From assembly GCF_002000055.1 (NCBI RefSeq), contig NZ_MVBD01000017.1, positions 1 through 60,761 on the forward strand: a DNA stretch of 60,761 nt, written 5' to 3'. Each line of letters starts with the position of its first letter. Within the stretch, counting starts at the first letter, position 1. Below the pieces are notes generated by a model, which was not told where the DNA came from, searched no databases, and was given only the letters and a program-made list of their open reading frames with translations. The DNA comes from Marinicella sediminis. Its GTDB lineage: Bacteria; Pseudomonadota; Gammaproteobacteria; Xanthomonadales; Marinicellaceae. A program made the translations under genes and the position numbers. Positions 13,801 through 39,600 of this stretch are shown here, in pieces.

Positions 13801-16800
13801 ACCCAAAGGATGTTTTGAATCTTCTGTACTTTACGACCCAGTGCCAACTCGGCAGTGCTTCGGGCCAAGTCCAGATAAGCAACGCCAGGGAGCGTCGGGA
13901 TGGCAGAAACCAAATGATCGTAAATGTAAAATTGATCATCCATAAAGGTTTTCTTAAAAACCTGCCTTTCAAACGTAGACTCATTCACATCAATCATTGG
14001 ATGAATGAACGCACCTGCGCTGGCCGTTTGAGTGGGCTCTGCTTCTTCTGGCCAATGGCGTTTGTCAGCAAATGGATAGGTGGGCAGAGAGACGGTAATA
14101 CCCTTAATTAAATCACGAAACCCCTGCCAGTCCTGCAAGAATCCTTCCGCCCACAGTTGTGCCAACTTGAATGGGTCATACTTGTCGTAAAGCATCTGTG
14201 CAAAAGATTGTTGTTCGGTACCATCCAAAACTCCGGATATACCTTGCGTTGACTTAACCACACCGCTGATGATGAAAGGCGAGGCTTCATCTGCCAGTAA
14301 TAATCCAAGTCTTTCAGCCAACTCATTGATGTCTGATGCCAGTACCACTGCCCGGTGATCAAATGATTTTCGGCGCAGCTGCAAGGTGTAAGCCACGTTA
14401 TTGGGGTCTGTGCCGTTCTGATTCTCCACATGCTGTTTCAGGCGCCTGGCCACATCCTTGAGTTGTGGCTCACTCCTGGCAGAGATCGGGAACACGTACA
14501 AATCCCTGTCATCACTGAGATCCACTGGCAAGTCTGTTGCCTGGTAACTTTCTACAATGATGTGTGCATTGGCACCACCGGCACCAAAAGAACTGATGCC
14601 TGCCCTCAGGGGATATGTGATGCCATCTATTTCTTTGGGCAACCATGACTCAGCTTGTTGTTGAACAACAAAGGGCGTACTTTCAAATTCGATGAATTCA
14701 TTCAATGTTGATGAGTGCAGCGAAGGCACCAGGGTTTGGTGACGCATTTGTAGCAGCACTTTACAAACACCAACGATACCGGCGGCGGCTTCTAAATGGC
14801 CGATGTTGCTTTTAACTGAGCCGACAGAACAACTTTGTTGCTCCACATTGTAATCAGCAAATGCTTGAGTTAAACCGGTGATTTCTATGGGGTCACCCAA
14901 TTCTGTTCCCGTGCCATGAGCCTCAATGTAGCCGATGGTTCTGGCGTCCACACCACCCCTTTTTAAGGCATCCAGGACCAGTCCACTTTGCGCCTTGGGG
15001 TTAGGCACAGTATAGCCACCACTGCGCCCACCATGATTGACCACAACACTTTTGATCACGCCATGGATGTTGTCATTGTCTTGTTCAGCCTGGGCCAATG
15101 GTTTGAGATAGATGGCACCAATGCCTTCACCTGCCACATAACCATTGGCACCTTCACCAAAACTCCGGCAATAACCGTCTTCCGACATGGTGCCACCTGA
15201 CACCAGGATTTCTTGTTTGCTCTGATGTAAATCCAGGTTCACCCCACCAGCAATCGCACTGGTGCATTCTCCATTCAGGATGCCTTCCACAGCCAAATAA
15301 ATGGAAGTCAGACTTGATGAACAGGCCGTATCGATGGTCATGCTGGGACCAGAAAGGTTCATCCAATATGACACACGGTTAGCAATACTCCACAAAAAAG
15401 AGTTGGGGTTAACGGTGTTGTTGTGGGCTTTTTCATCAACTCCGATCATTTGGAACATGGCCCACACAGCCCCCACATACACACCCACCTTGTGAGGACC
15501 TTCTCCTTCACCCAGTATCTCAGGGTAGTAGCCCGCATCCTCAATGGCTTCGTATGCCACCTCAAGAAACAAACGCTCCTGAGGGTCCAGCATTTCCGCT
15601 TCTCTTGGAGAAATGTTGAAAAACAGAGAATCAAATTTGTCGATGTCGCTGACAAACCCACCGCGGTAATTTAATGGCCTGGCAGACTTTAACCTCTTTT
15701 TCACCCGCTCCATAGGCAGGTCAGTGATGCAGTCTTTTCCATTGAGTAAATTGTCCCAAAGTGCAGCCAGGTTATCTGCTTTCGGATACCTGCCAGCCAC
15801 CCCTACCACAGCGATGTCGTTGGAATTAGTGCCCCTATTATCGACCGGTCTCACCTCAATTGCCTGGCTGATGTTTTGGTTTGTTGTTTGCGGTTCTGGT
15901 CTTTGTTTGACCGGTTCTGATATAAGCTGATCCTCCCCAGAGCCGGCAACCTGATGATACTTAACCAGGAGGTATTGCTTATTCCCTGGCTGATACTCTG
16001 CGTTATGTTGCTCATTGAGCGTTATTTCCGGGATGGTGTCCAGCTGCTGAGAAAACTGCATCAAGGCATCAACAATTTGCTGCACCGAATCTGCCGACAG
16101 CCCCACAGGAATGGCCAAACGCACCAAGCCCTTCAAACGCGAATGTTTTTGCATGCCGACACTGTGGCTACCGGCGCGAATACCGGTCTTTAAAAACAAC
16201 CAGGCCAAGAATGACTCTACAGGGTAGGCAAAATTTTGTAATTCAGGTATCTGTTTGACATCCACGATAATGCAATGACCACCCGTGGTATGTTGAACTG
16301 GGAAATTGTGTTCTTTCAGGGCCGCTGAAATTTGTACAACCGCATCCATTCTGGCAGCCACAAGCGACTCAATTCTGGATCGACTGTGTAAGGCGGCGGC
16401 AATCAGTTTTTTGTCTATCACGTCCAAACCACAGCCTTTGGCATCTGTCAGTTTGGTCAATTGATGCCACAATGATTGATCATTGGTTGCAATCAGTCCA
16501 CCTGTATTGACCCCAAAATCTTTGGCCAAACTCACTGTGATGGCGTCGGCACAGCGCAATATTTCATGCACAGTGTTCCACAAATCAGTTTTTTCTCCTG
16601 CTTTTTGCGCGTCAACGAAAATTGCATTTTCAATGATTCGGGTGGCATCCATAACCAATGGCACCTCGTGTTCAGTTAAAAAGGCCTTCACCGTTTTCAA
16701 CTCGTCCAATGACACAGGTAAACCACCGGATGCGTTGTTGCTGACTTCGATGACCACAAAGGCAATGTCATCCTCAGCGTCCAACACCTGCGCTTTCAGT

Positions 16801-18719
16801 GCAGGTACATCCACACCGCCGGCAAACAACACATTGGAACCGGTTTCAAAAACATGTGGGTGAGGTATTTCAACTGGATTCAAACCATGTTGGATCTCTG
16901 AAAACACCCAGGTTGGGAACAATAAATTCTGTAAAACCTTCGCCGTACCCTGCCAGGCTTCACAAAGCACGGATTCTGCAGTCCGCCCTGACTCAGTCAA
17001 AACAAAATAAGAAAATGGAAATATTTTTTTCAGTGTTGCTGTCAGGTCATTCGACCGGTGCAGTTGCTGATAAAGTACTTGCATGTGGTCTTCAGTGACT
17101 GAAGGATCAAGCTGAGCCCAGGAATCTGTGCTCAAGTCAATGGGCACGTCTTTACTGTTCACGGCAAGGGGATTGAAGTGATGACATGAGAGCAATTCTG
17201 CCCGCCCATCAAAGGCACCCGATTGCAGGTGGTTCACGGCATTGATTTGTGGTGCTGTTTTTGGGGCACTTTGTATTGCCGGCTCTACCTGTGATGAACC
17301 CTCTTCATGACTGGCTTGTGATGTCGTCAAGGTTTGCATTCTTTTGGGGTCTGCAATCATCATTACAACATCGATGGCGCTTTCGCTGTTTTGGTTTGTG
17401 GCTTCTCTGCACAGGTATATGGTGTTGTTTTCCGGCCTGAATTTATTCTTAAACTGCAGATTTCCGATGTCATTGAAGATATTCTGTTCCCTGAGGTTAT
17501 CCAACAAACCATCAACATCATCGTCTTTGTTGTCTGGCTCTTCCAGCTTGGGTCCCAAGGTGGCGCCCAGGCTGAGTAAGTCACAACCTTCACCAATCAA
17601 GACGTCAATGATCTCAACGATGGTGTACTCCAATCCACCCAATGGCATGTCTTGTGGATAAAATTCCAAATCCATCAAGTAACCGTTCAGTTTTTTTGAA
17701 AGTGGTGAAATGATCACAACATTTTGTAAATCACCATTGATGCGGGTGGTGAAAATCCTGTGCTGTTTATCCAACGTGCCGTCCAATATTTCCTGCCTTG
17801 CTACGTGAACCAACGGATTAACTTGCGTTCTGGTCGAGCACCATTGATCTATCACATCAACAATTTGTTGGGCTATCTGCTCATTCGAGCCAACAATGAA
17901 CTCTTCGGTTTGACACTCACCGGCTTTTTCAAATTTATTGACCAAATACCGTAAACGGCGCATTTTTCCGCCTTGCAAAGAAAATTGTTGCAAGCCGTGT
18001 ACCCGTTGCAGGGCGCCAAAAGGTGTGGCTGTTACGTTGGTGCTACCAATCTGCCTCAGGTGTTGGTTCACCAACAGGTTGAATTCCAGGTTTTGCTTTC
18101 TGCTGTAAACAAGAAATTCGTTCACTATGGTCTCAAAGTAAGAGTCCGGACCTGTGTATGCATAAGCCAAAACAAGTTGTCCATACTGACTGAAGTGGAT
18201 GTAGCCCTGACGATCAGCACCAATGAACAGTTGCGGCGCAATGATTCGGGTGCCACGCGATACAGATGACTCACCCTTGTGTTCATCGTAGATCGATTGA
18301 ACCAATGGGCCCAGGTGTTCATCGGCAAGCGCCAAACGTTCTGAGATCACAATGGGTTGCATCAATTCAGATTGACGATTGATTGGCTTTGCAACGGATG
18401 ATGGTGCTTCACTGGATATTTTGGCTGCACTGTTTGCTGGCTTATTTGAAGCAAATTTTTCCAGCAAAACCGCTTCATGATTCTCCACAAAATACTGACT
18501 TAAATCATTGATGTCAAAATTTTCAAACAACAATGTTTTTGACAGTTTTCCAAAGACATCCTCTAACTTTTTGATGATTTTCAAAACATAAAAAGAATCA
18601 ATACCCAGTTCCAGAAAAGGTGTGCCAGAATCAAGCTGTTCAGTGGGAATTGAAGACACTTCCGAAATGATTGATTTCAAAAGATTGTCGGTGGCTGTGC
18701 GTAGTTTTTGCTTTTTCAT
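1806..18719 (-). CDS. Trans-AT PKS C: ACP-DUF2156-PLP lyase | KS-DH-KR-ACP | KS-DH-KR-cMT-ACP-ACP | KS-DH(degenerate)-ACP
   Basis: A 5637-residue PKS with no AT domain. Domains with rough residues: ACP 5-90 (Ser42); DUF2156/GNAT-like 124-460; PLP lyase 505-896 (Lys733); KS 962-1395 (Cys1133, EAHGTGT, KSNIGH); DH 1572-1856 (His1602, Asp1771); KR 2100-2280; ACP with Ser2417; KS 2520-2957 (Cys2693); DH 3143-3425 (His3172, Asp3338); KR 3655-3880 (Tyr3810, but Cys3814 where Asn is usual); C-methyltransferase core 4095-4280 (ILEVGAGTGG); tandem ACPs with Ser4368 and Ser4479; KS 4580-4993 (Cys4744, KMNIGH); degenerate DH 5192-5450; ACP with Ser5514; acidic tail. It starts with an ACP although PKS B ends with KS-DH, so the first module is split over two proteins. 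The methylating module should add an alpha-methyl group. The chain then passes to the adjacent NRPS. The SD before ATG 18719 is weak (GAG). Confidence 0.96.
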   Translation of the reverse strand: MKKQKLRTATDNLLKSIISEVSSIPTEQLDSGTPFLELGIDSFYVLKIIKKLEDVFGKLSKTLLFENFDINDLSQYFVENHEAVLLEKFASNKPANSAAKISSEAPSSVAKPINRQSELMQPIVISERLALADEHLGPLVQSIYDEHKGESSVSRGTRIIAPQLFIGADRQGYIHFSQYGQLVLAYAYTGPDSYFETIVNEFLVYSRKQNLEFNLLVNQHLRQIGSTNVTATPFGALQRVHGLQQFSLQGGKMRRLRYLVNKFEKAGECQTEEFIVGSNEQIAQQIVDVIDQWCSTRTQVNPLVHVARQEILDGTLDKQHRIFTTRINGDLQNVVIISPLSKKLNGYLMDLEFYPQDMPLGGLEYTIVEIIDVLIGEGCDLLSLGATLGPKLEEPDNKDDDVDGLLDNLREQNIFNDIGNLQFKNKFRPENNTIYLCREATNQNSESAIDVVMMIADPKRMQTLTTSQASHEEGSSQVEPAIQSAPKTAPQINAVNHLQSGAFDGRAELLSCHHFNPLAVNSKDVPIDLSTDSWAQLDPSVTEDHMQVLYQQLHRSNDLTATLKKIFPFSYFVLTESGRTAESVLCEAWQGTAKVLQNLLFPTWVFSEIQHGLNPVEIPHPHVFETGSNVLFAGGVDVPALKAQVLDAEDDIAFVVIEVSNNASGGLPVSLDELKTVKAFLTEHEVPLVMDATRIIENAIFVDAQKAGEKTDLWNTVHEILRCADAITVSLAKDFGVNTGGLIATNDQSLWHQLTKLTDAKGCGLDVIDKKLIAAALHSRSRIESLVAARMDAVVQISAALKEHNFPVQHTTGGHCIIVDVKQIPELQNFAYPVESFLAWLFLKTGIRAGSHSVGMQKHSRLKGLVRLAIPVGLSADSVQQIVDALMQFSQQLDTIPEITLNEQHNAEYQPGNKQYLLVKYHQVAGSGEDQLISEPVKQRPEPQTTNQNISQAIEVRPVDNRGTNSNDIAVVGVAGRYPKADNLAALWDNLLNGKDCITDLPMERVKKRLKSARPLNYRGGFVSDIDKFDSLFFNISPREAEMLDPQERLFLEVAYEAIEDAGYYPEILGEGEGPHKVGVYVGAVWAMFQMIGVDEKAHNNTVNPNSFLWSIANRVSYWMNLSGPSMTIDTACSSSLTSIYLAVEGILNGECTSAIAGGVNLDLHQSKQEILVSGGTMSEDGYCRSFGEGANGYVAGEGIGAIYLKPLAQAEQDNDNIHGVIKSVVVNHGGRSGGYTVPNPKAQSGLVLDALKRGGVDARTIGYIEAHGTGTELGDPIEITGLTQAFADYNVEQQSCSVGSVKSNIGHLEAAAGIVGVCKVLLQMRHQTLVPSLHSSTLNEFIEFESTPFVVQQQAESWLPKEIDGITYPLRAGISSFGAGGANAHIIVESYQATDLPVDLSDDRDLYVFPISARSEPQLKDVARRLKQHVENQNGTDPNNVAYTLQLRRKSFDHRAVVLASDINELAERLGLLLADEASPFIISGVVKSTQGISGVLDGTEQQSFAQMLYDKYDPFKLAQLWAEGFLQDWQGFRDLIKGITVSLPTYPFADKRHWPEEAEPTQTASAGAFIHPMIDVNESTFERQVFKKTFMDDQFYIYDHLVSAIPTLPGVAYLDLARSTAELALGRKVQKIQNILWVSPLTVQDHQPTIAKTELKIQNGQVHFETFSEGEDHHKQLYSQGRVSYQTPEDTAAQDEYIDIQAIKKRTTFTIEGKDAYPLFKDLGLYLGPSFQVLQEVYKNDDEALGRLVLPAARVLDLKSFVLHPSLMDGSLQVAMAAAIGDDVDELFVPYTIGEVEVLHPLTEECYSYVTAVKEAKKSKSNLSKMNVVIADGTGKVLVKVRECVGVPLTEVHEKPNEKGVVPLSYAPQWESTPLPVHLPNTVDTVLLFEDVDHPFSGISASDQQVIRVHQSEQFEVKSNGLYGLNPENPADFVQLVGDLQQKGHTIQNICFTWGAHSLPKNESQLADAALLKPALNTGIFALMHLSQALLAGNIKDKVQIIYAYHSSEPGHFPLHAAVSGFANTLKQEGHKFSCKTVELIGDQQTAGRSWELMFQEFAINAHQVEVVRYQGEDRYIKRTLATTKPVFAGNDDSLAAPIKHRGTYLISGGAGGLGLIFAEHLAREYQANLVLLGRSSMSAQLEEKLTALTHLGGQVEYISTDITDGEEVANALARGRERFGHFDGIIHAAGCLRDAYIRDKNSEDFYAVLAPKLLGAVHLDQHSREDNLNFFVMCSSMSAVGGNAGQCDYAFANSYMDAFAHKRQRLTESDMRCGNTLSFNWSIWAEGGMQIDEATAVFFKNNLGIVPLSVKTGLSALLGGIASGYPQIAIMEGEREKVEQVFGFTEQVDTTPVLSEESESSNDKRTAAAEPAEANSELSQLVKKQLTQMVMDFLKLDESDISSDAILLDLGFDSIGLTSFANLINEHYALNVTPVLFFEYPSIDDVTTCLTEEHQEAVSKVHSTSGASSSREKATAAKPIPLQEVQNPSTLLDIQSKWPAGVETTSEQQTVSLANRFTDQPIAIVGISGSMPQSENLDEYWDNLANAVNMITEIPRDRWNWEDYYGDPLKEDNKSNSKWGGFMKEIDKFDSLFFGISPHEAEFMDPQQRLFLECVWAAVEDSGHKIADLSGTKTGLFVGVATNDYVDIMATNDIGIEAYTSTGNSHSVLVNRVSYLLDVHGPSAPLDTACSSSLVAIHRALESIHCGSCDMAIAGGVQVMASPSGFITFGKAGMLSPDGKCKTFDSRADGYVRGEGVGAIFLKPLSQAEADGNPIYAVIKATGENHGGKANALTAPNPNAQSELLIDVYEKAHVDPSTIGYIECHGTGTSLGDPIEIQGLKRTFNELYKRAGTEQPAAPHCGIGSVKTNIGHLETAAGIAGILKLVLSIQNKQIPASLHVQEVNPYIDLTGTPFYIVKETQPWIPAKDSNGKDLPRRGGVSSFGFGGANAHILLEEYLPPEVMPVANEHDLFVIPLSAKTETSLKTYVHKLLRFLHKNTVDMNGLAYTLQVGRDTMIHKLCVVATNQTDLVDKLGDVAQGNTDHPDVFTNISGPALQGPDKTEVREFQLDKMASQDWSAIAAAWVSDSAIDWTLLYGAKKPQRLSVVTYPFERNRHWIINESNAGKGKAGHHGEELSTIHPLVHMNVSTLTAQKFATMLNGQEFFLTEHVVDGKKILPGVAYMEMARKAGELSVGSQVTTIRDLVWFKPYIHDDNDSGQLAITMHPGKMQVGFDVTHFKAGENTVLSKGALSFDQHAHPRQQLDIKAIQSRCTELAYDAPGLYSLLHNSGLELDKGFQIVQTIHASQTEALSVLQLPAHLQQGADDYLLHPALMDGSLHTSMGLLKLNQIDKALNLPFSVEEIQIYGPLTELHYGYVTWSDENASSSQGDHRVTVTLLDHDGVVLVRMKNFLSKPFDRSNFGKIFGKPLPSGAVEPTVVGEQLNALAPVWEVLPQSPESQPAVTPAEGVYLVCSTADQEQWLREDFGHIQKSRWVTAPTSEEVDRITSAKFDELVWVAPDVQQEAQSAEDFQAMIEEQERGVIALFKLTRALINDKKGSQPLKLTIITQGAVLVTQRQSINPCHSGVIGFVGSLAKECPHWDIRLLDIESLHTTQAKSCLSQPFDPMGNPLAHRNGQWYRMGLGQVELGKEFKPVYKAGGVYVILGGAGGLGELLSSHLIEQYDAKIVWIGRSEFNAEIKAKCELLGEKGNQPLYFQADATDLNSLKSMASELQKIHPQINGVVHSAIVLKDQSIAQMSDEAFTKTLRAKVDTSVNLQSVFRDCELDFMLFFSSIISFFKTPGQSNYSAGCTFKDAFASAISASNKWVTKVINWGYWGNIGIVGNEGYRKIMEGAGIGSIESEEGLEALQQLMEGPFDQLGLIKTLGTKALKNLSVKETLAPARQFTSTQVVDMSQLETANLPPDELKALENEYNSSELDELAGQLLASILRHSGVDLEQPDTKANMDADVPEFYREWLHSTLTYLHNHDLTSADATISTETLWNQWHAATARWSTNPNRKAQITLLETCLKSLPEVLQGRKLATEVMFPGSSMALVEGIYKDNVVADFYNRVLKEALKAQLDHLQTTAPQHKIRILEVGAGTGGTTSQLIPLLDGYKDRIDEYCYTDISKAFLLYAEQQYAPQMPYLKTSMFDVSKPLNQQATQFADYDIVIATNVLHATPNIRETIRNSKAILAKEGVLLINEIGTWTLFGHLTFGLLEGWWLYEDGELRIPGNPGLNSKTWQNVLFDEGFHAVQFPAKIADSLGQQIIVAQSDGLTRQVNGNEKESEPYPIPSQAPRQNQPIEHVEGQPTVKQTQDTTSFDSEDIMNTQIQDVIKQKLSAALKIEPGIIQNKTPFADYGVDSIIGVSLIRDINEALHIELETVVLFEHSNVESLAAYVTQNYAGTLAHQASDETAAVDAQVVEQTAQRTTQQSSQMGLSEIQNVIKQSLSSALKIEPGIIQNKTPFAEYGVDSIIGVSLIRDINSALHIDLETVVLFEHSNVESLAQHINKNHAVVSGQQAPEGTQPALVGQPQNNSVEPSTRLDLVNQESRFWNPSQREVQAEQHATLSQAEIEPIAVIGMSGRFSQADSLDEFWDHIQQGRELVDEVTRWPQAECAGSQINAEDYCTRGSFINGIDQFDAEFFRISPEEATYMDPQQRIFLEESWKALENAGYATDKIGGKQCGVYVGCGGSHYDSLITSEPPAQSFWGNSESMIPTRIAYELDLRGPTIAIDTACSSSLVTIHLACQGLWIRETEMALAGGIFLQPTPRFFQVANRASMLSGTGSCRSFDPQGDGFVPGEGAGVLVLKRLSDAQRDGDYIHGTIIGSGINQDGSSNGIIAPNAKAQIELLESVYERFEIDPASVQLLEAHGTGTAFGDSIEHLALKRVFDNKAQNGPTHALGSVKMNIGHTVGSAGVAGVLKLLLAMKNKQLPPTPHLEPAYETEGQDLSPFYVNTQLKEWTTENDQPRRAAASAFGFSGTNAHIILEEPGKRPGTIDQTLGNLIVFSARTAQQLQQKITDMIAWLETGQDFSLLDIGHTLLSGRSTFKHRLACVSRSAEELRLQLKGWLDTRESGFVFAGVVDGFTVKEQVALKNFGNYCIEQCEAHVVQPGEPDEGVYLEQLSTLGDLFVKGYQLNYSRLYGNTARRVPLPTYPFERSRFWVATEPLKAAQLAAKNNGQADSRSVIHPLLQQNQSDLSQLRFTSQISQSNRFVQKQGDQAIILPSTQLAMALLAIKASMPDKQASFVLHLTNTAWAQQPVVVEDSSHFEVSLLPLSKNQMGVELCRKTTDEVAVCLQSYVDLAAGELQPLTFDVTEFKAQAVVEHIAFENSFYHHGERVVVELCRSDESNVIDGLAAIDLAAIVIPARALLLREKPTEDYPAVIAVGFASLHLLMTAGAPQYVMIEHVDSGAVNVNILDAQGHILMVIEQLQFKQADRQPQNTGYIFHHPEHNDSVVEASSELVMTVEEKARVFVTQFIAGLLKTPTEQVATNLNYVELGVSSMGLAALIKELNHLLGVDILPSILFEHVTIEAFSNHLGAQFEKQLEQLRVFKIPESSDTRGAPSDAFVLQPMPRPKRPFYLGDHMQNQESQTTEQSNPQQLEDMLEMLKAGEDTDQDSTQKLTF
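2370..3140 (-). other. Degenerate dehydratase domain in last module of PKS C
   Basis: After the third KS of PKS C, residues about 5192-5450 align with DH domains by the entry segment (HPLLQQNQSDL) and the double hot-dog length. The catalytic His of HxxxGxxxxP is missing (GDQAIILPSTQLAMAL instead) and no DxxxQ/H motif is visible in the second half. It is most likely inactive and structural. Confidence 0.7.
5170..5730 (-). repeat. Tandem, nearly identical ACP domains (333-bp period)
   Basis: Two ACPs of PKS C (Ser4368 and Ser4479) share the motif YGVDSIIGVSLIRDIN and almost the same flanks, including IQNKTPFA and ETVVLFEHSNVESLA. At DNA level the two segments starting at 5191 and 5524 align with a constant offset of 333 bp and few changes, so this looks like a recent in-frame duplication or gene conversion. 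Tandem ACPs often occur in beta-branching modules, but both copies have Leu, not Trp, six residues after the serine, the position of the known beta-branching flag. Confidence 0.9.
16030..17205 (-). other. PLP-dependent beta-eliminating-lyase domain in PKS C (candidate cysteine lyase, 'SH'-type)
   Basis: Residues about 505-896 of PKS C resemble the tyrosine phenol-lyase/tryptophanase family (fold type I). Seen in the sequence: SNNASGGLPVSLDELK; Asp691 and Arg694 in MDATRIIENA; Lys733 in SLAKDFGVNTGG; Arg848 in TGIRAG; Arg867 in LVRLAIP. From memory of tyrosine phenol-lyase, these match the PLP-pyridine Asp, the nearby Arg, the Schiff-base Lys and the two C-terminal arginines that include the substrate-carboxylate ligand, with similar spacings (42, 115 and 19 residues). 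The catalytic set is therefore complete. By analogy with the cysteine lyase domain of leinamycin LnmJ, it may cleave the C-S bond of a cysteinyl-polyketide and leave a thiol on the ACP-bound chain. The fold is a solid call; cysteine as substrate is inference from architecture. Confidence 0.82.
17340..18350 (-). other. DUF2156 / GNAT-like domain in PKS C between ACP and PLP lyase
   Basis: Residues about 124-460 look like the C-terminal domain of phosphatidylglycerol lysyltransferases (DUF2156, GNAT-like fold). The telling pieces are KMRRLRYLVNKFEKAG near residues 252-268, a pattern that aligns with the RRLRxxxNKxxxxG element of that family, and later GYLMDLEFYP followed by EIIDVLIGEGCDLLSLG near residues 343-385. 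DUF2156 enzymes move aminoacyl groups. In leinamycin LnmJ a domain of unknown function stands at the same place, between the ACP and the cysteine lyase, and was proposed to help add cysteine to the enoyl chain. Whether that domain and this one are homologous cannot be judged here. Role in adding cysteine, or another amino donor, to the ACP-bound chain is inferred. Confidence 0.6.
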
Positions 18720-19300: not shown

Positions 19301-19409
19301 TCAAGTCAAAACAACCCTACTCAATGATTGCCGAAAGCAACAACAACCCCAACAAAAACTGATGGAGTTGTTTTGATCAATGGCTACTTGACCTATCCGA
19401 ATCTAACTG

Positions 19410-21839
19410 TTATTCACCACGCAAAATGTCTGCTGGCTCTAAGCGGACCACTTTTCGCGTAGGCCAGTAGGTGGCGAACATCACGGCTGTGCTGATGATC
19501 AGCACCAGACAGACTGCGATGATTAACAGCGATGACCCATCGATACCGAACAACTGCGACATCCCAAAACCCATGGCACAACCAACCAGCAAACCAGGAA
19601 TGCCACCCCATAACAGGTGCTTGAAACCTAACCAAAGCAGCTCCCTGGTGATGCGATCATCACTGGCTCCCAAAGCCTTCTTCACGCCAATTTCCTGCGC
19701 TTTGGCGTTGACCGTGTTGGACATCACACCATAAATTCCACTGGCAGAAAGCACCACAGCAGCAATTCCAAAAATAAGAAAAATGGCACTGCCGAAGCGC
19801 AAAGGTGCAATGTTCCGACTGACCGTCTCATCGTAGGTTTCAATGCTGAAAGCAGGCAGATCAGGATCCAGCGACAGCATCACCTGACGCAATGCATCTG
19901 TGACTTGTTTTTCCCCAGCCTGCATGCCCATCGCTATATTCAGTTGGGTTCCAGGATCTTGCGAATAGGGCCTGAACATGGTGGGCGGCTTGCCAACATC
20001 ATCCACTGGAGATCCTTGAATCGTGTGCTCTACCACACCAACAATCTGCAACCAGTTAGGCTGGGAGTCATCTGACTCAACCACCCTCACCCGCTGCCCC
20101 AAAGGATCTTCATCTTTGAAGTGTCGGGCAACAAAGCTTTCAGTCACAACGACACTGTTTTTGCCTAATCCTTTGTCACTGGAATCAAAATACCTGCCTT
20201 GCAGCAGAGAAACCCCTAAATTCTGCAGGGTGCCAACCGTCGCCGTGATGTAATTAACCCGCGGATACGACGTGTTGTCTGTATCACTGTATTCTCTGTT
20301 TTCCAGAGCGATGTTTTTCCTGTCACTGTAATTACCCGGCAACGCTGATGAAATCATCACCCCATCAATTTCGGGCCGGTTCTTTAAATTGGCTTCCAGG
20401 GATTGTACAAATTGAACTTTTTGCTCATCAGTGGCGTATTTCGACTCTGTCAGGATCAAATCACTGACCAACTTGCCAGAGGTATCCGCACCGTAGTCTG
20501 CTTCCGTGGCTTTGTAAGTGGCAAAAGAGATCACTGCTGCCGCAATCAACACAGCCATTGAGATAAAAATTTCACCAATGACCAGTAATTTATTTATCCT
20601 GCCGGTTTTTTTACTCGTGGCTCCCCTTGTTCCATCACGTAAAACGGCATTGAAGTCACCACCCGTGTTTTTGAGTGCAGGAATCAACCCGGTCAGTACA
20701 ACCGTGAGAACAACAAACATCACCAACAACAAGATGGTGAATCCATCTATGCCAAACACCCACCAAAATGGCGGTTTGTCAATTGAGAAAGATGCGGTTG
20801 CAGACTCGGTCAAACTCAAGCCCAGACTGATCAACCCAAGCGCCGCCAGCCCCGCCACCAGGCAAATCAGTACGCTTTCCAACATCAACTGTCCCACCAG
20901 GCGGTACTTAGGAGCTCCGAGTGCCACACGAATGGCCGTCTCTTTGCTGCGTTCGATGGCCCTGGCAAGCATTAAATTCGCCACATTCACTGAGGCCAGA
21001 ATCAAGATCAATATCGCCACAATGTGCATTGAATAAACAACCGTTAAACCATCACCAACCACTGCCATTTGAAAAGTGTCAACGTATGCACTGATTCCTG
21101 TGTTGGTCTTGGGATACCGCTCGCTCAATCTTTGCATCACAGTATTGATGTCAAGATTGATTTGTTCTACTGACGCAGAATCATCCAACCGTGCAAGTCC
21201 ATACACATGTTCTGCCTGGTTGCGATTGACCGTGCTGCGGTTTTGCTTCAATGGCAACCAGAGCTCAGCCCTGACTGGGAAAGAATAGCCTTTTGGCATC
21301 ACTCCTATGATTTGGTGTGGCGTGCCATTGATTTTCAGGCTTTCACCAATCACCGAATCGGCGCCAGCAAAGCGGTTTTCCCACAAATCATGGCTGATCA
21401 CTACAACGGCCTCAGAATTCGGCTGATTTTCAACATCATTGAATCCCCGACCCAAAGCTGGCTTAGTGCGGGTGACCTGAAATATGTTGGGTTCTGCCAA
21501 GGTGGCGCTGTATCTTCTGACCCCATCGCGGCCAGATACATTCACACTCTTGCTGGTGTAGCCACCAAACTCAGTCAACCCCTGTAGATTTGTACTGATT
21601 TCATGATAGTCACTGAGGTTTAGTTGATCACCCGTTTTGAAGCCGCCTTCCGAAGCACTGATCTGAACAATCTTGCTGCCATTTTCAAATGGCAAATCCT
21701 TGAATAACATGGTATTCAGGAATGAGAACATGTATACGCTCAAGCCAATTCCTGTGGCCATCACGAGGATGGTCAACAGGCTGAACCCTGGTTTCTTAAG
21801 CAGCAACCTTAAGGTGTATTTAATATCACTGAGAACCAT
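19410..21839 (-). CDS. ABC transporter permease, FtsX/MacB type with duplicated membrane core
   Basis: An 809-residue permease. It has a first membrane helix (about 17-38), a large periplasmic MacB_PCD-type domain, a three-helix FtsX core near residues 270-390, then a second copy: helix near 418-440, a second periplasmic domain, and a final FtsX core near residues 690-800. This doubled form makes one chain carry what is normally a permease dimer. It starts on a TGATG overlap with the ATPase stop (1 nt shared), so the two are co-translated. With the adaptor upstream it forms a MacAB-like pump that, with an outer-membrane TolC protein not present here, would export the product or its intermediates. 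Confidence 0.92.
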   Translation of the reverse strand: MVLSDIKYTLRLLLKKPGFSLLTILVMATGIGLSVYMFSFLNTMLFKDLPFENGSKIVQISASEGGFKTGDQLNLSDYHEISTNLQGLTEFGGYTSKSVNVSGRDGVRRYSATLAEPNIFQVTRTKPALGRGFNDVENQPNSEAVVVISHDLWENRFAGADSVIGESLKINGTPHQIIGVMPKGYSFPVRAELWLPLKQNRSTVNRNQAEHVYGLARLDDSASVEQINLDINTVMQRLSERYPKTNTGISAYVDTFQMAVVGDGLTVVYSMHIVAILILILASVNVANLMLARAIERSKETAIRVALGAPKYRLVGQLMLESVLICLVAGLAALGLISLGLSLTESATASFSIDKPPFWWVFGIDGFTILLLVMFVVLTVVLTGLIPALKNTGGDFNAVLRDGTRGATSKKTGRINKLLVIGEIFISMAVLIAAAVISFATYKATEADYGADTSGKLVSDLILTESKYATDEQKVQFVQSLEANLKNRPEIDGVMISSALPGNYSDRKNIALENREYSDTDNTSYPRVNYITATVGTLQNLGVSLLQGRYFDSSDKGLGKNSVVVTESFVARHFKDEDPLGQRVRVVESDDSQPNWLQIVGVVEHTIQGSPVDDVGKPPTMFRPYSQDPGTQLNIAMGMQAGEKQVTDALRQVMLSLDPDLPAFSIETYDETVSRNIAPLRFGSAIFLIFGIAAVVLSASGIYGVMSNTVNAKAQEIGVKKALGASDDRITRELLWLGFKHLLWGGIPGLLVGCAMGFGMSQLFGIDGSSLLIIAVCLVLIISTAVMFATYWPTRKVVRLEPADILRGE

Positions 21840-22564: not shown

Positions 22565-22591
22565 AAATTAATACCTCATTATCTAAATCAT

Positions 22592-32302: not shown

Positions 32303-33097
32303 TCATTGTTCCCAGGGAAATTGGCCAGTATCTACGTAAGTACTGATTTTATTGATGTTCTTGACATCACTGAATATATCTTGATTGGTCTTCAGCGCCA
32401 TGGCTTTGTCGCTGATCAATCCACCACTGAGTGAGTTCATGTAAGTCTTGTGCTTCATGATGGCGCTTTTATCTAACCTACGCAATCGCAACAGATGCTT
32501 GCGAAGCAGGTTGTCGACATTGTCATCCAGGGCGTCGGCCAGTCCCCATTGCACAGCTTGTTCCGCGGTAATTGATTGGGTCATCAGGGTCATGTAATTG
32601 GCCTTTGATTCACCCACTCGCCTGATCAAAAATGGAAGTACACATGCTGGAATGAGGCCAAATAACAATTCTGACAAACCAAAATCAGCGCCTCTTTCAC
32701 ACAAAACCACATCACAAGCGGCCACAAATCCCACACCTCCTGCATTGGTTTTACCTTTGACTTGAGCAATCGAAATATAAGGACCTGTCGCCAGGTTTAA
32801 CCAAATGTTGTACAAAGGTTCTGGATTATTGGGGGCTTGAAAAGCATTGGCCTTCATTTTTTGGGCAATCTGATTGAAGTCCGCCCCAAAACAAAACACC
32901 TCCGGCAACCCTTGTAAGACAACAACCTTGGCGTACTGCTTGGCTGCTTCCAGCAGCTCATCCATTTCTGCAATCAATTTATCATTGATGGCATTTTTTG
33001 CTTCCGGGCGATACATTTGAACATACAAAATGTCCTGTTCTTTTCTGATTCGCAGGGTTTCATAGCCCCCTGACTGTTCGTGTGCTAGCCTAACCAT
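32303..33097 (-). CDS. Enoyl-CoA hydratase homologue, ECH1-type dehydratase of beta-branching
   Basis: A 264-residue crotonase-fold protein. It matches the PksH/CurE-like ECH1 group as I remember it: VVLQGLPEVFCFGADF, KGKTNAGGVGFVAA, LSELLFGLIPACVLPFLIRR, KHLLRLRRLDKSAI and the C-terminal TGQFPWE. ECH1 removes water from the HMG-like intermediate on the acceptor ACP and gives a glutaconyl-type thioester. The usual partner ECH2, which then decarboxylates, is not in this window. The gene overlaps the HMG-CoA synthase homologue by 13 nt. Confidence 0.87.
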   Translation of the reverse strand: MVRLAHEQSGGYETLRIRKEQDILYVQMYRPEAKNAINDKLIAEMDELLEAAKQYAKVVVLQGLPEVFCFGADFNQIAQKMKANAFQAPNNPEPLYNIWLNLATGPYISIAQVKGKTNAGGVGFVAACDVVLCERGADFGLSELLFGLIPACVLPFLIRRVGESKANYMTLMTQSITAEQAVQWGLADALDDNVDNLLRKHLLRLRRLDKSAIMKHKTYMNSLSGGLISDKAMALKTNQDIFSDVKNINKISTYVDTGQFPWEQ

Positions 33098-34344
33098 ACG
33101 TACTCTCTGTGAAATTCTTTGATTTGTTTCAAAAACAAAGTGGGTTGTCCCAGGGTTTCCCTGGCTTCTGGAATGAAGTCTTCATCAAGAACCGTGTTTC
33201 GGGTGCCAAACTTGAGGGCTGTACTGCCAGTCAGAATACCGTCGTATTCCTCCATGCTCAACTCATGACGGGCATCTAACTTGTCATTAATGTTGAGTGC
33301 CCGCAATTTCTGCTGACCTTCTTTGGTGACCACCAAACTGAAGAACTCAGAGCAACAACCAGATCCATATGAAAACACACCAATGCGTTTGGGGTGTTCA
33401 AAATCCCCATTTTCTATGGTACTTGTCAATGCCAGAGCTGCGGTTGCCCCCATGATATTACCCACCCGTTGGCAGTAATCCAACCCAGGCAGCACCCGCA
33501 GTGAAAAATCAGCTTCAATGACATCTGGTTTGGCCTTCAACAGCTTGCGCATCATGTTTCGATGAGCCCCTTTTACCATCCCGCCAAACGGCGTGTGATA
33601 AGCAATGTAATCAAAGGTTTCATCGAATTTGACCCCTTCAACGCGTTTACAATATTCCAAAAAGGCATTTTCACAACAGTCAAGGTATGACAACAATGAC
33701 AAATCAGAATCACCCGCATCCGCGTCTGGTGATGGTCGGCAAGTGTCCATCACTTCATATCCATAATAACCATTGGCACCCACATCAATTTGAGCAATTT
33801 TCGGCTGGTCACTGATCAGCATGGCCACGGCGCCAGCGCCATTGCTGGGTTCGGCAAAAGACCAATCCGCAGTCAGGGCATCTCCACCTTCTTCCACCAT
33901 GAAGCGGGAAATATCTGTGGCAATCACCAGAACCTTGGCACCGGGTGAAACCTGAGACAGGACCATGTTTACAGCCATTTGTATGCCTGCAACGCCTGAA
34001 TAACAAGCGTTCTTTAGCTCAAACAGCCGACAGTTTCTGTTCAGTCCCAACAAATCATGGCAATACGTACTCATCGACTTACCAAAGTCAAATGATGACT
34101 CGGTACAGGTGATAACCATTTCGATGCGGTCTTTTTCTTCATCAGACAAGCTGTCAATCAATGGCTTGGCGGCATTGACACCAAAAGTGATTGGGTCCTC
34201 AAAAGGCAACGCCACCGTTTTTTCCTTCATCAACAGATTTGAAATTCGCGACATGTCAAGCCCTCTGTGCTTGGCCAATTTTTCAACATCCAAATAGACG
34301 GTGCCACCAAAGACATTGATGGCTTCGATTCCTACAATTTTCAT
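33085..34344 (-). CDS. HMG-CoA synthase homologue (HCS) for polyketide beta-branching
   Basis: A 419-residue protein of the 3-hydroxy-3-methylglutaryl-CoA synthase family, with the nucleophilic Cys114 in LKNACYSGVAG, MKIVGIEAINVFGG at the start, and FSYGSGCCSEFF near the C terminus. It condenses acetyl from the donor ACP with a beta-keto polyketide on a PKS ACP, so that the beta-carbon gains an alkyl branch. It opens the cassette HCS-ECH1-ACP-KS, all tightly packed. A 166-bp gap separates it from the MBL gene, and the region before its ATG has no good ribosome site. Confidence 0.95.
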   Translation of the reverse strand: MKIVGIEAINVFGGTVYLDVEKLAKHRGLDMSRISNLLMKEKTVALPFEDPITFGVNAAKPLIDSLSDEEKDRIEMVITCTESSFDFGKSMSTYCHDLLGLNRNCRLFELKNACYSGVAGIQMAVNMVLSQVSPGAKVLVIATDISRFMVEEGGDALTADWSFAEPSNGAGAVAMLISDQPKIAQIDVGANGYYGYEVMDTCRPSPDADAGDSDLSLLSYLDCCENAFLEYCKRVEGVKFDETFDYIAYHTPFGGMVKGAHRNMMRKLLKAKPDVIEADFSLRVLPGLDYCQRVGNIMGATAALALTSTIENGDFEHPKRIGVFSYGSGCCSEFFSLVVTKEGQQKLRALNINDKLDARHELSMEEYDGILTGSTALKFGTRNTVLDEDFIPEARETLGQPTLFLKQIKEFHREYVWLG

Positions 34345-34510: not shown

Positions 34511-35218
34511 TTATTTAAAGTCGAATAATTTCGCACGATTTTGCCCTTTTCTTAAGCGAAATGATGCAAATGTATTTTTATCTTTAAATTGTAAATAAAT
34601 ATTATTATAAAGTAAATCTGAAAAGTACTGTCCTGGTATCTTACCATAAGAATGTCCTGGAAAAATTTTTGTGCTTGGTTTTATATATTTTTTCAAAAAC
34701 TCCAGACTTTCAAACATTTCATAGGCCGCAGCAGTGTCTGGACAGGTTCCACACCCTTCCGCAAAAAGCACATCTCCCGTGAATAAATTGTTGCCCACCA
34801 TGTAACAAACACAACCCGGTGTGTGCCCTGGTGTGAACAAAGGACGGATGGACAATCCGCCAACCAACCAAGGCGTTTCTTCAAAGGTTTCCAAACGAGG
34901 ATGTTCAAATCCCGAAAAACCGGCCTCTGCTTGAGACATCCATATGGGACATTTGTAGCGGTCTGCCACCACCTTCGCCAAATTGATGTGATCTGCATGT
35001 GTATGGGTGATCAAAACACCTGCCAGCTTTGCTCCTGCTTGCTCAACGGCCAGATCCACTTTGTCCATTTCCCAAGCCGGATCAACAATAACTGCCAGCC
35101 TGGTGTCACGATCAATCAACAGGTAATTGTAGTTTTTCATGAACTGATAAAACATCTCCAGCACAACCACTTCCGGTTCACTGCCAAACACGCTGTTCAT
35201 GCCAACAAAACTTCTCAT
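34511..35218 (-). CDS. MBL-fold hydrolase (BaeB/PksB-like)
   Basis: A metallo-beta-lactamase-fold protein of 235 residues with the zinc motif THTHADH, then TPGHTPG, LFTGDVLFAEGCG and FPGHSYGKIPG. It belongs to the glyoxalase II-like group commonly found in trans-AT clusters next to the ER and AT genes, where it is thought to hydrolyse thioesters, either to free stalled acyl groups or to act on ACP-bound intermediates. The ATG at 35218 overlaps the stop of the enoyl reductase (ATGA); the conserved part begins at about residue 22 (MFYQFMKNYNYLLID), so a later start at 35155 is possible. Confidence 0.9.
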   Translation of the reverse strand: MRSFVGMNSVFGSEPEVVVLEMFYQFMKNYNYLLIDRDTRLAVIVDPAWEMDKVDLAVEQAGAKLAGVLITHTHADHINLAKVVADRYKCPIWMSQAEAGFSGFEHPRLETFEETPWLVGGLSIRPLFTPGHTPGCVCYMVGNNLFTGDVLFAEGCGTCPDTAAAYEMFESLEFLKKYIKPSTKIFPGHSYGKIPGQYFSDLLYNNIYLQFKDKNTFASFRLRKGQNRAKLFDFK

Positions 35219-36672
35219 GGCTGTTGATCCTGCTGGCGGCTGGCGGTCATAAGGCGATTGATCTCTTGGCTCATGAACCTGGCTGTTTCACACATGAGCT
35301 GCTCTGCAACCTCTGCCACCCGCCGGTTTCTCCAGTCAGCCAATGGCGTGTCCTTTACCCACTGATTAAAGGCGCCAAGGGCTGGGCCCGTGTGTACCTG
35401 AAAGTCTATTCTTTTTTCACTCATGCCTTGAAGCGCATACCTGGTAGTGAGGCTGAAATATTTTTTGAATACCAATGCGAGCTGATGTTTTTTACATTTA
35501 TGTGCTTTTTCAATGATTTTACTGTTCCCTTTTTGCAGGTGATACTGCTCTACTTCAGCCCAAACTGCGGCGAAACCCTGTTGAAAATATTTTTGCTCAA
35601 TTTGTTTTCTGGTGGCTTCGGGGATGTCATCCCACCCACGGTATTGTGAATACAAGTCATACAGTTTATTGGCTCGGGCTGCAAAAAAATTGCCCTTTTT
35701 AAGCACCTGTACCTTGGCTCCAATCTCAAACATGTCACCAGCCGGCGCATAGTCAGTGTCCTGAACATTGATGCTTTGCAACATGTCTTTCACCTCATCA
35801 CTGGTGGCCGCTTCCACAGTGCATTGATTGATTGAGCCTGTGAGGATGAAATCGGCCCCCATCATGAATGCCGATGCGGCAGATTGTGGCACACCAATAC
35901 CTCCCGCAAGCCCAACATGAATGGCATCTTGATAAGCGTATTTTTCCAGCACAGTTAACCTGAGGGACTGAATGGATGGCAACAACACGGAGGGTATTCC
36001 CCGGTCTGTGTGTCCCCCTGAATCAGCCTCCACACAAATGTCAGAACACATCGGAATTAATTGGCTCAATTCACTTTGTTCTTTACTGATCTTGTTTTCA
36101 GCCAACAACGTCTGAACCATTTTTAAGGGCGGTGGCGAAAGGAACTTCTCAGCCACTTCTGGTCGTGATAGCTTGGCAATAATTTTATGGGCGCATTGCA
36201 CCGTACCATCTGCCGCTCGTGATAAGCCACTGACCCGGTAATAAACCAAAGCCAATGTCATTTGCATATAAGCAGATGCTTCAACAATGTTTACGCCATG
36301 CTTGACGTACATGGCCACAGTGTTCAGCTCAGCCTCGGGATTTTCCATTTGGCTGATCAAATTAACACCAAAGACTTCATTGACAGCCAATTCAGCTTGT
36401 ATGGCAATGATGTCATTTTCAACGGCTTGTATATCCCTACCTCCGGTGCCCAAAAAACCCAGCAGCCCTTTTTGCGCCATGGCCACAACCAACTCTTTTG
36501 AAGCAATTCCCTGATACATGGCACCGGACAAATAAGCGTACTTGATTTGGTACCTGCTTTTGAACTCAGCTGACCCAAGTGATTCAGGTGTCAGCGAACA
36601 AAACCATTGGTCAGATTGCACAGGCTTTGACTGTTTCATTGCTGTTCTTCCATTGCTGTTTTTCATAGTCAT
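35215..36672 (-). CDS. Trans-acting enoyl reductase, PfaD family
   Basis: A 485-residue flavin enzyme of the PfaD/2-nitropropane dioxygenase-like family. Marks include GFLGTGGRD near the N terminus, VGLAGGIGVPQSAASAFM, ADFILTGSINQCTVEAATSD and APAGDMFEIGAKVQVLKKG. It reduces selected enoyl-ACP double bonds in trans, using NADPH and FMN. None of the PKS modules in this window has an ER domain, so any saturated bond should depend on it. Its ATG overlaps the TGA of PKS B (ATGA), so it is translationally coupled to the synthase. Unlike some homologues it has no fused AT domain. Confidence 0.95.
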   Translation of the reverse strand: MTMKNSNGRTAMKQSKPVQSDQWFCSLTPESLGSAEFKSRYQIKYAYLSGAMYQGIASKELVVAMAQKGLLGFLGTGGRDIQAVENDIIAIQAELAVNEVFGVNLISQMENPEAELNTVAMYVKHGVNIVEASAYMQMTLALVYYRVSGLSRAADGTVQCAHKIIAKLSRPEVAEKFLSPPPLKMVQTLLAENKISKEQSELSQLIPMCSDICVEADSGGHTDRGIPSVLLPSIQSLRLTVLEKYAYQDAIHVGLAGGIGVPQSAASAFMMGADFILTGSINQCTVEAATSDEVKDMLQSINVQDTDYAPAGDMFEIGAKVQVLKKGNFFAARANKLYDLYSQYRGWDDIPEATRKQIEQKYFQQGFAAVWAEVEQYHLQKGNSKIIEKAHKCKKHQLALVFKKYFSLTTRYALQGMSEKRIDFQVHTGPALGAFNQWVKDTPLADWRNRRVAEVAEQLMCETARFMSQEINRLMTASRQQDQQP

Positions 36673-39600
36673 TTTTCTTGCCCGCTGAGCACGGATTTCT
36701 TCACTGACGTTTTTCCATCCGTTGTTTTTTGATCAAGGGTCATAGCACGCAGGTAAAAATTCTTGATTTTCATCAGCACCTGTCCGGACTCACTTAAAAC
36801 GACCAGCTGGTAACGATTGAATTTACTGCTCCTGGCATTACCATCTTGTAAATAACTGACGTGTACATAACACGTTTTTGTCAATGGCCGGATCATTTCT
36901 ATTTCGTCCACTGCAAAAGGCACAAAAACCTCATCAATTTCATCGGTTGGAATGATTGCTGAAACGGTTTGCAATACGCCATCCAGTAAAGCCGGGTGCA
37001 TCAGGTATTTTTCAAACCCAGGCTCCAGGTGTTTGGGCAAAGTCAATTGACCCAGGCAAAAACCTGCCCCAACATAAACTTGCTGCACACTTTGGAAAGA
37101 CTTTTTATAGGTGAAACCAATCTTTGAGAATTGCTCATAAAAGGATTGTCCATCCACCATGTGATCACATGCTTCCTGAAGTTTTTTCAAATCATGAGTT
37201 TCATTTTGTGCGTGCAACACAGTATGGCCGAACACCATTTTGCCCTCAGCATGCAGCTGCGTTTCGTAGCCATCTGTTTGTGAAACAATCCGAAACTCGG
37301 TGTTGTCACCAGCGGCTCGCATGAACGTTTGCAATTCAGTGTCTGTCCCCAAAAACCTCAACGGGTGTGACCAAATGATGTCCTTGAGTTTAACCACTTT
37401 GCGCTGCCCGGCCAGGTTGCCTGCGACACAAGCCATTTCCAGGTAGGCAGCCCCTGGGAAAACACACGATCCATTCACCTGATGATCTGTGGCGTAATAG
37501 GCCGTTGATGACAATCGGGTAACAAAACTGATGTCACTCAAAGTTGAGGTGTTTTCAGTCACCAGCGGGTGCAAGCCAGGCGTTTCAACTGGCTGTTTCA
37601 AACTGAACTGACTCACCGGTGATTTGCTTTCATCGATGATCCAACAACGCTCACCTTTGAATGGGTATGTCGGCATGGCTATTTTCGGCGGCAAAGCATC
37701 GCCATAAATGGCGCGCCAATCAATGGGTAAACCAGCCAGCCAAGCGTCCATCAATTTGCTCCATTGTCGCTCTGTGGCAAGGTCATGCAACTGTTGCCTG
37801 AGGCTTTCATCGATTCGCTGATTACTTGCTTTGTGACTTGTCACTGATGTTGCAAGCTGGGCGTATTCCGCCCCACTGTTGCCAATCCACAGCGACAATT
37901 TTTCACTCAGATCTGCCACCGAATTGGACGGAATGGCCAGCCGGTGTTGCATGGCTTCCCGACCAACTTGCGATGTTAAACACAGCGCGTGTAAACAAGT
38001 CTCAGGATGGTTGGTTAAAAACGTTTTGATCAGGACGGCATACTTTTGAAGTTGAGTTGCCGAACCGGCTGACAAAACAAAGACATTGTCCGACAGCTGA
38101 TCGTATTGCTGTGGTCTTATGGACCGATATGCTTCCAAAACCACACACGCGTTGACTCCACCAGCACCGAATGAATTAACCAGTGCCCGGCGCTTATGCT
38201 CAGCGGCCGGCCAGTTTATCAGGTTTTGCTGCACGGTAAAGCCAGCAGCAGTGAAATCGATGTCTGGATTCAATTCGGTGCTGTGCAAACTGGGTGCCAC
38301 TTGTTGATGTTGCATTTGCAAAATGACTTTTGTGATGCCGGCAATTCCTGCCGCAGACTCTGCGTGACCCATGTTTGACTTCACCGAACCCAGCATGCGT
38401 TGCCTTACTTGGCCATTGCCATTCAATACTTGTGCCAATGCAGCGACTTCAAGCCCATCACCCAACTGGGTGCCGGTACCATGACCTTCCACATAATCAA
38501 TTGACTCAGGCGCACTTCCGGCAGCCACTAAAGCCTGGGCAATGACCCGGGCTTGTGAAACTGGATTGGGGGTTGAGTAACCATTTGAACGGCCACTGTG
38601 GTCATGAGCACCGCCCAAAATCAAACTGTGGATGTGATCACCATCCTCTTCGGCTTTTGACAGCGGCTTCAACAACAAACTCCCCACCCCTTCGGCTGGT
38701 ACAAAACCATTGTCGCCGGCACCAAAGCTGCGACATTTACCGTCTTGAGACAACATTCGCTTTTGACACATGGACAAGTATTTCGCAGGATGAAGGTACA
38801 AGTTAACACCACCGGCCAGTGCCATTTGGCATTCGCCACGCCTGAGGCTGTCACAAGCCAGATTCACTGCCACCAAAGAAGATGAGCATGCGGTGTCAAC
38901 GGGCATGCTTGGGCCATTCAAATTGAGCACATACGAGGTGCGGTTGGCAATCGACCAAGGCATGGCGCTGGGTGTCAGCAGATCACCCTTCTCCCAGGCC
39001 TCATGGGCAAGCAGGTTATAGGTATTGGTTGTCACACCCACAAACACGCCCACGTCCGCACTTTTGCCCTTAGGGGCAACCTTCATGAGCTCATCTTTGG
39101 TGTAACCGGCATCTTCAATCGCTGACCAGGCCGACATCAAAAACAGCCTTTCTTGCGGATCCATCAATTTAGCCTCATGATGAGAAATATTGAAAAACCC
39201 ATGCTCAAACAAATCGACATCTGCCAGGAAGCCGCCCCATTGGCAATAAATCTTACCTTCTTCTGCCATGGCTGGATTGGCATCAAACCACTGTTCATGA
39301 TTCCAGCGATTGTCTGGTACCTGCTCAATCAGATGTCGACCTGATTTAATGTTTTCCCAGAACGCATCCAAATCATCTGATCCGGGGTATCTGCCGTGCA
39401 TACCGATCACGGCAATGGCTTGAGTAGCATCTTGCTGCGCGCTGATGTGATCATCTTGACCAGCCCCAATGAGCAGACCATCGTTGGCCAGTGGCTTCAA
39501 TACCGCACCCTCTCTTTGCTTATGATCAACGGGTTGTCTGTCAGTTGCTTGCTTGTCCCTGATGGCAAACTTGTTCATCAGCTTATCTGGCACCAAGTCA

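Follow-up and report, generated by a model that had tools for sequence, protein, structure and literature searches.

A probable internal sulfur-insertion module split over two polyketide synthase proteins in Marinicella sediminis

We analysed a stretch of 60,761 nucleotides from Marinicella sediminis (contig NZ_MVBD01000017.1, positions 1 to 60,761, here called the window), the minus strand of which holds all its main genes, among them those of an incompletely assembled trans-acyltransferase (trans-AT) polyketide synthase (PKS) line. Our results suggest that the ketosynthase and dehydratase at the end of one protein, PKS B (KS*-DH), and the acyl carrier protein, DUF2156 and pyridoxal phosphate (PLP)-dependent lyase domains at the start of another, PKS C (ACP-DUF-SH), probably constitute one internal, split sulfur-insertion module. 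The domains of this module and of its neighbours are the following.

41934..43226, minus strand: KS of the preceding module
40044..40631, minus strand: ketoreductase (KR) of the preceding module, nucleotide-binding and Ser/Tyr/Asn patterns present
39615..39806, minus strand: ACP of the preceding KS-KR-ACP module
38136..39446, minus strand: last KS of PKS B (KS*), residues 4162-4598, with VEGHGTGTQLGDGL and NACVVLEA, Cys-His-His intact
36711..37574, minus strand: C-terminal DH of PKS B, residues 4786-5073, His4816 and Asp4983 present, no ACP after it
18501..18692, minus strand: N-terminal ACP of PKS C, residues 10-73, ELGIDSFYVLK
17340..18359, minus strand: DUF2156/LPG_synthase_C domain, PKS C residues 121-460
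16035..17219, minus strand: SH (thiocysteine-lyase-like) domain, PKS C residues 501-895, Beta_elim_lyase
16521..16523, minus strand: codon of Lys733, the presumed PLP lysine (SLAKDFG)
14553..15851, minus strand: KS after SH, PKS C residues 957-1389

With profiles made from the window's own domains, PKS B (36669-51929, minus strand, 5086 aa) was read as KS-DH-ACP-KS-DH-KR-ACP-KS-KR-ACP-KS-DH, and PKS C (1806-18719, minus strand, 5637 aa, with residues counted after removal of the extra leading residues of the open reading frame, ORF) as ACP-DUF-SH-KS-DH-KR-ACP followed by KS-DH-KR-(methyltransferase motif)-ACP-ACP-KS-(partial DH)-ACP. These calls bore out an initial annotation of this DNA, according to which PKS B ends KS-DH without a carrier, with the catalytic His and Asp in place, and PKS C starts ACP-DUF2156-PLP lyase (Pfam PF09924, E 1.4e-15, and PF01212, E 1.1e-29, respectively). 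The absence of a KR, also claimed there, holds within the joined module; the module before it is KS-KR-ACP. The module has a single ACP and, as annotated, no thioesterase (TE), and three KS follow the lyase in PKS C before a non-ribosomal peptide synthetase (NRPS), of which the window has the start of the ORF only. The KS directly after SH would carry the chain onward, and the module is therefore internal. A distance of 17,950 bases, which holds accessory genes, separates the two halves; we read them as one module because single-ORF forms, DH-ACP-DUF-SH-KS in locus L078 and KS-DH-ACP-DUF in locus L105, support it.

On sequence and modelled structure, the PLP domain of PKS C is nearest to the SH thiocysteine lyases. 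Its best sequence match in the PDB was 9cen, entitled 'Structure of the thiocysteine lyase (SH) domain from guangnanmycin A biosynthetic pathway' (E 8.1e-55 with a shorter and 1e-59 with a longer query), the next being tyrosine phenol-lyase (E 5.3e-36, shorter query) and then tryptophanase. All 22 PDB matches at E ≤0.01 were 9cen or one of these two lyases, which rules out an aminotransferase or another non-lyase PLP enzyme; in the comparison with SH and with the tryptophanase and tyrosine phenol-lyase families that had been proposed in the initial annotation, 9cen was the nearest. The predicted structure (pLDDT 90.7) gave a Foldseek list headed by 9cen, with a TM-score of 0.84 over the query, in which tyrosine phenol-lyase showed similar TM-scores and a higher rmsd. 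In an alignment of 23 SH domains, the window's and 22 chosen from 80 loci (described below), Lys733, Asp691, Arg694, Asn698 and Arg867 were invariant (23/23). A relative of SH with 34% identity, a 406-aa open frame outside any PKS, occurs in a genome of the same class (L022, G200:C5:149193-150344).

The DUF model (pLDDT 95.0) has the predicted fold of aminoacyl-tRNA-dependent transferases of the MprF/FemX type: the top rows, most of them with TM 0.65-0.71 over the query, were DUF2156 domains of MprF and of lysylphosphatidylglycerol synthases, and lower matches included FemX (0.57-0.58) and the aminoacyl-tRNA-dependent peptide synthases Sbb17/Sba18 (0.53-0.54). Taken together, E-values and fold rule out chance or weak matches for both SH and DUF.

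The initial annotation had taken module 8 of the antitumour compound leinamycin to be KS-DH-ACP-DUF-SH-TE, an order that does not agree with the published one for the leinamycin family (LnmJ, GnmT and WsmR), which is KS-ACP-ACP-DUF-SH-TE, with no DH (PMC7618002). The window shares with that module a DUF2156-SH beside an ACP with Phe after the active Ser (Phe-type), the SH fold and its lysine, and the presence in the cluster of an HMG-CoA-synthase-like beta-branching enzyme (HCS) and ECH1. In contrast, it has one ACP instead of two, and none with HMG-acceptor features, contains a DH, is split over two proteins, continues after SH with a KS and not a TE, and falls in a separate tree group. The genes of the beta-branching cassette of the window are the following.

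33085..34344, minus strand: HCS
32303..33097, minus strand: ECH1 (PksH-type dehydratase)
31983..32228, minus strand: free-standing ACP of the HCS cassette
30752..32056, minus strand: free-standing KS of the HCS cassette (PRK07103)

An internal, split DUF-SH arrangement in a Gram-negative organism is present as annotated, but it had already been tabulated in 2013 (Table 2 of PMC3870968), where Kordia algicida A9ECY5 is CP-DUF2156-PLP3-KS-KR-CP-KS and Lysobacter sp. ATCC 53042 F8TUA6 is CP-DUF2156-PLP3-KS-KR-CP-KS-KR; the entry for Burkholderia gladioli F2LI38 has an internal PLP3 domain and names no DUF. These Kordia and Lysobacter proteins, like PKS C, start ACP-DUF2156-PLP lyase and go on to a KS, whereas in the window's line the last KS is preceded by a methyltransferase motif and by tandem ACPs, and an NRPS follows. 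The Kordia DUF-SH (locus L040) is 44% identical to that of the window over the best segment. DUF-SH beyond leinamycin was published in 2021 as three further families among 109 biosynthetic gene clusters (BGCs; PMC8479088), and in 2024 the non-leinamycin clusters were noted to have one ACP and no TE (PMC7618002), traits that the window shares together with variable modules around DUF-SH. The observation is real and was correctly seen, although the layout is not a first; what is new here is the conserved segment KS-KR-ACP-KS*-DH / ACP-DUF-SH-KS, the carrier likeness, the predicted DUF fold and a probable link between Aquimarina sp. Aq78 and cuniculene, each treated in turn. Among the literature matches listed (ten of 338 for Marinicella) there was no publication on this Marinicella cluster and, within the open-licence literature and apart from the cuniculene lead, no proven product for an internal DUF-SH module.

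A scan of genome contigs gave 159 stretches and 90 relatives, from which 80 loci were kept. As determined by script, 51 of the 80 have DUF-SH at the start of the protein, followed within one ORF by a KS (the split class), and an ACP was called by eye before DUF in 46 of these. Three more also have DUF-SH at the protein start but are interrupted or shift frame. In 15 others KS-ACP or KS-ACP-ACP precedes DUF and SH is followed by no KS, and three partial loci look similar; the remaining eight are fused, KR-bearing or truncated. The split internal layout is thus the commonest form among the 80 loci, and its recurrence makes an assembly artefact an unlikely source of the split in the window. It was found in Pseudomonadota, Bacteroidota and Acidobacteriota, so that split internal modules from at least three phyla offer single-ACP, TE-free systems in which to study how polyketides gain a persulfide. 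Among 369 evenly drawn genomes of the same class there were three matches at E ≤1e-40: that of the window itself, a second in which DUF and SH occur together, and a free SH-like protein; 31 genomes, the source and its relatives, gave eight matches at E ≤0.001, with DUF and SH together in three, the source included. DUF-SH is wide in range and sparse within each group.

A tree was built by a 'quick' search, with no bootstrap and a midpoint root, from 73 of the 78 didomains recovered (window included, five omitted). In it, 53 rows including the window form one supported group (99*) and the leinamycin-type rows another (100*), outside which the window lies. The window pairs with L065, a Kangiellaceae metagenome-assembled genome (MAG; 96*), and then with Aliikangiella L029 and the Kangiellaceae MAG L097 (96*), on a long branch (0.91); by plain identity L029 is the nearest, at 50%. 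In all three of these loci homologues of at least two of three export genes (permease, ATPase and MacA-like) adjoin DUF-SH. Leinamycin-type modules, KS-ACP(-ACP)-DUF-SH with no KS after, also occur in Gammaproteobacteria, in Pseudomonas sp. H3(2019) (L077, 10001-12148) and Endozoicomonas sp. G2_1 (L087, 10001-12277), which branch together within the leinamycin group. Modules with a KR before the ACP were seen in L074, L081, L091 and L095, labelled as Myxococcota, Acidobacteriota, Spirochaetota and one unplaced MAG, and a DUF-SH PKS in a Lachnospiraceae MAG (Bacillota; L103, 10001-12151) has a very long branch.

The surroundings of DUF-SH were compared in five whole clusters and on a contig from the L065 genome, and for another 38 genomes within the 10 kb that lie upstream of HCS; a sixth fetched set, Spirochaetales contig C154, was not the DUF-SH contig. 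Upstream of HCS, PKS ORFs were present in 37 of the 38 stretches, and an ORF ending KS-DH in 37/37. The signature EGHGTGT, which is present in the last KS of PKS B, was found there in 34 of 59 full KS, in every case with only the terminal DH after it, and KR-ACP was called before it in 32 of the 34. It was also present in 5/83 KS of the fetched clusters (contig C154 included) and 1/4 of the L065 contig, and each of these six belongs to a KS-KR-ACP-KS*-DH end. Because KS-DH ends and the EGHGTGT KS recur, we regard KS-KR-ACP-KS*-DH / ACP-DUF-SH-KS as an old, shared assembly-line piece, a natural cassette for sulfur inside the chain and not at its end. The order matches that of a type A dehydrating bimodule, KS-KR-ACP-KS-DH-ACP over two proteins, split one domain later than usual. 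A full match was rejected, since the second KS of that bimodule is a non-elongating KS0 that has lost its active-site His (PMC8456789), whereas the window's KS* keeps Cys-His-His. We also rejected ACP-DUF-SH as a loading module, because a KS or KS-DH end lies upstream on the same strand in Pseudomarimonas, in L098 and in the window; the gene order in Kordia and Aliikangiella is compatible with that idea, and many loci showed no PKS ORF in the roughly 9.5 kb upstream.

In the ACP before DUF of the window, Phe follows the active Ser and the HMG-synthase acceptor residues are absent. Among 62 non-leinamycin loci and the window, 54 such ACPs were recovered by pattern (nine gave none or were dropped), and Phe follows the active Ser in all 54, in 14 of 17 leinamycin-type ACPs nearest DUF (the three Phe-less ones probably being the first ACP picked by the pattern) and in 11 of 160 other ACPs. 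Arg at +3 and Asp/Glu at +5 were each found in 0/54 ACPs beside DUF as compared with 11/11 of the leinamycin first ACPs found, two of which come from one strain. In the acceptor network of WsmR ACP7, five of six single changes abolished HMG formation and the sixth weakened it; for weishanmycin, HMG branching in vitro took place on the first ACP only, and the authors do not decide which of the two ACPs receives the sulfur (PMC7618002). In these residues the carrier beside DUF is like the leinamycin ACP that does not serve as the beta-branching acceptor, which favours a sulfur step on the second-type (Phe-type) carrier, bears on the leinamycin question of which ACP carries that step, and makes action of HCS on the window's sulfur ACP less likely.

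Cysteinyl-tRNA synthetase produces cysteine persulfide. It is a long shot, suggested by the DUF model, that DUF could be an aminoacyl-tRNA-dependent transferase giving tRNA-borne cysteine persulfide to a PKS-bound enone, with the Phe-type ACP bearing the sulfur step in every DUF-SH system. If the former were true, the assembly line would take sulfur from the translation machinery; if the latter, the leinamycin-family 'pathway a or b' would be settled for the second ACP.

In the reading that we favour, the chain would be made on KS-KR-ACP and handed by KS* to the N-terminal ACP of PKS C, where it would be presented as an unsaturated thioester or enone. DUF would attach L-thiocysteine (or cysteine) by conjugate addition, the PLP-dependent SH would cut the cysteinyl C-S bond to leave -SSH (or -SH) on the chain, and the next KS would move the sulfur-bearing chain on. 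By analogy with tested SH domains, we infer that sulfur is installed as a persulfide. More tentatively, the acceptor double bond might derive from the KR and DH of the preceding bimodule and not from the HCS cassette, which would hence define the sulfur-bearing carbon. Were KS* to elongate, the substrate could be a 3-oxo-4-enoyl chain, its hydroxyl having been set by the KR module and then lost as water through DH, and sulfur would sit on the former hydroxyl carbon; were it only to transfer, the substrate would be a 2-enoyl chain with sulfur on its beta-carbon.

Several observations weigh against this reading. Cys-His-His was found by pattern in 40 of 43 KS* (two were unreadable at the fetch edge and one lacked the last pattern), and since it is intact KS* should elongate, giving a beta-keto chain in which the electrophile is less obvious. 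Of 43 KS*-DH ends, only 19, including that of the window, have a terminal DH that fits the two strict catalytic patterns, which weakens a general role for DH; judged by these patterns, the domain may not be working in many relatives. As the ACP-DUF-SH gene lies about 65-110 kb from HCS in Kordia and Aliikangiella, gene order is no proof of which KS feeds it. An extra DH-KR-ACP-KS protein stands in between in 8 of 38 stretches by eye (7 by script) and in four further genomes; L065 (genome G427), the nearest tree sister of the window, has such a protein. The C-terminus of PKS B and the N-terminus of PKS C might accordingly not be partners, PKS C following instead an unassembled protein such as DH-KR-ACP-KS, an idea that a contig cut at both ends favours. 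We consider this unlikely, since no such protein was seen among the KS matches of the source genome outside the window contig, it is absent (by script) from 30 of the 37 PKS-bearing stretches upstream of HCS, and DH-ACP-DUF-SH exists as a single ORF.

HCS itself also counts on the opposing side, being present at 70-79% identity in the genomes of all 51 split-class loci and absent or more distant in the fused, truncated or KR-bearing ones. In a leinamycin-like route, HCS and ECH1 without ECH2 would leave a carboxylated beta-branch on the PKS C ACP, to which thiocysteine would add. The window's ECH is a PksH orthologue (E 1.5e-88) whose FGADF and SELLFG stretches, by reading, align over Asp68 and Glu137, residues tested in PMC7501309. 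ECH2 (NF005496) stayed below cut-off in the source genome (best 104.7 bits against 215), and it is the same combination, ECH1 without ECH2, to which leinamycin module 8 owes its carboxylated branch (PMC7618002). Against such a route, ECH2 exceeded the cut-off, free or within PKS ORFs, in all but one of 44 genomes searched, of which 43 are split-class and one is KR-type, the carrier beside DUF lacks the acceptor residues, and the HCS may serve ECH modules elsewhere in those clusters. HCS was found in 44/44 of the genomes searched for ECH2 and 14/19 of a second set (one genome shared with the first, and two with only a 29% homologue): it was not found at E ≤1e-20 in the DUF-SH genomes of L078, L085, L095, L103 and L105, and those of L074 and L081 have the 29% homologue, most of these seven being MAGs. 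On this evidence the leinamycin-like route is possible but on balance doubtful. The initial annotation had SH as a cysteine lyase leaving a thiol, as LnmJ-SH was originally described; this does not fit the three tested SH domains, now named thiocysteine lyases, which leave -SSH (hydropersulfide) and prefer the thiocysteine adduct 50- to 106-fold, although they keep a weaker cysteine lyase activity (PMC8479088), and a plain cysteine lyase in the window is in our view improbable. That the PLP domain is no more than a dead or repurposed remnant seems very improbable indeed, given that it keeps the five residues shared by all aligned SH domains. We retain the split module of KS*-DH and ACP-DUF-SH as the probable reading.

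One product of the split class is likely already known. The cuniculene BGC is carried by Aq78, Aq349, EL33, A. muelleri and RhTr2 (PMC9323603, PMC9860996), and a split DUF-SH cluster is present in Aq78 (L037), A. muelleri (L032) and RhTr2 (L041), Aq349 and EL33 being outside the locus set. In Aq78 all 10 PS-DH matches lie on contigs C15 (with the DUF-SH ORF), C21 (with HCS) and C32, and one more large KS-bearing ORF lies elsewhere, on contig C4. Aquimarina sp. Aq78 probably makes cuniculene with this sister cluster.

In reading order, the genes of the window run from PKS A (5' end missing) through a luciferase-like monooxygenase, PKS B, PfaD, an MBL hydrolase, HCS, ECH1, ACP, KS, two AT genes, a phosphopantetheinyl transferase, an 1118-aa protein, a MacA-like gene, an ABC ATPase and a MacB-type permease, and a 137-aa ORF to PKS C and the NRPS start. 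The remaining features are listed below.

35215..36672, minus strand: PfaD-type trans enoyl reductase
34511..35218, minus strand: MBL-fold hydrolase, SolJ-like yet below the cut-off of the SolJ model
28525-29508 and 29513-30700, minus strand: two trans-acting AT proteins
19410..23839, minus strand: MacB-type permease and ABC ATPase (Pfam) with a MacA-like gene (by eye), directly upstream of PKS C

The monooxygenase, of the MupA/Atu3671 family, is a gene of its own between PKS A and PKS B (51986-53110, minus strand). The 1118-aa protein (24297-27653, minus strand), between the phosphopantetheinyl transferase and the MacA-like gene, had no Pfam or NCBIfam match at 1e-3; by eye it has a nucleotide-binding-like stretch, GKAGLGKTHL. 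The first KS of PKS B (49413-50705, minus strand, residues 409-839) carries NTMCSSG, EAQGMG and KPILGH and is probably non-elongating because the His of HGTGT is lost; a methyltransferase-like stretch was seen by eye ahead of it.

The source genome is of 3.99 Mb and 98.3% complete. The contig has 62,745 bases, with a run of 10 N at 60762-60771 just past the window, and the assembly line is for this reason incomplete at both ends. Near-identical KS-linker-DH sequence flanks the N run on both sides, pointing to a possible collapsed repeat, and the protein beyond it also ends, by eye, in KS-DH. Contig C17 of the source genome (L027; 5,078 bases), with KR-ACP-KS and ECH-like matches, was rejected as a lost piece of the line on its G+C content of 0.546 as compared with 0.473 in the window, which suggests another cluster or foreign DNA, while the end of contig C41 (G+C 0.474) may belong to the assembly line.

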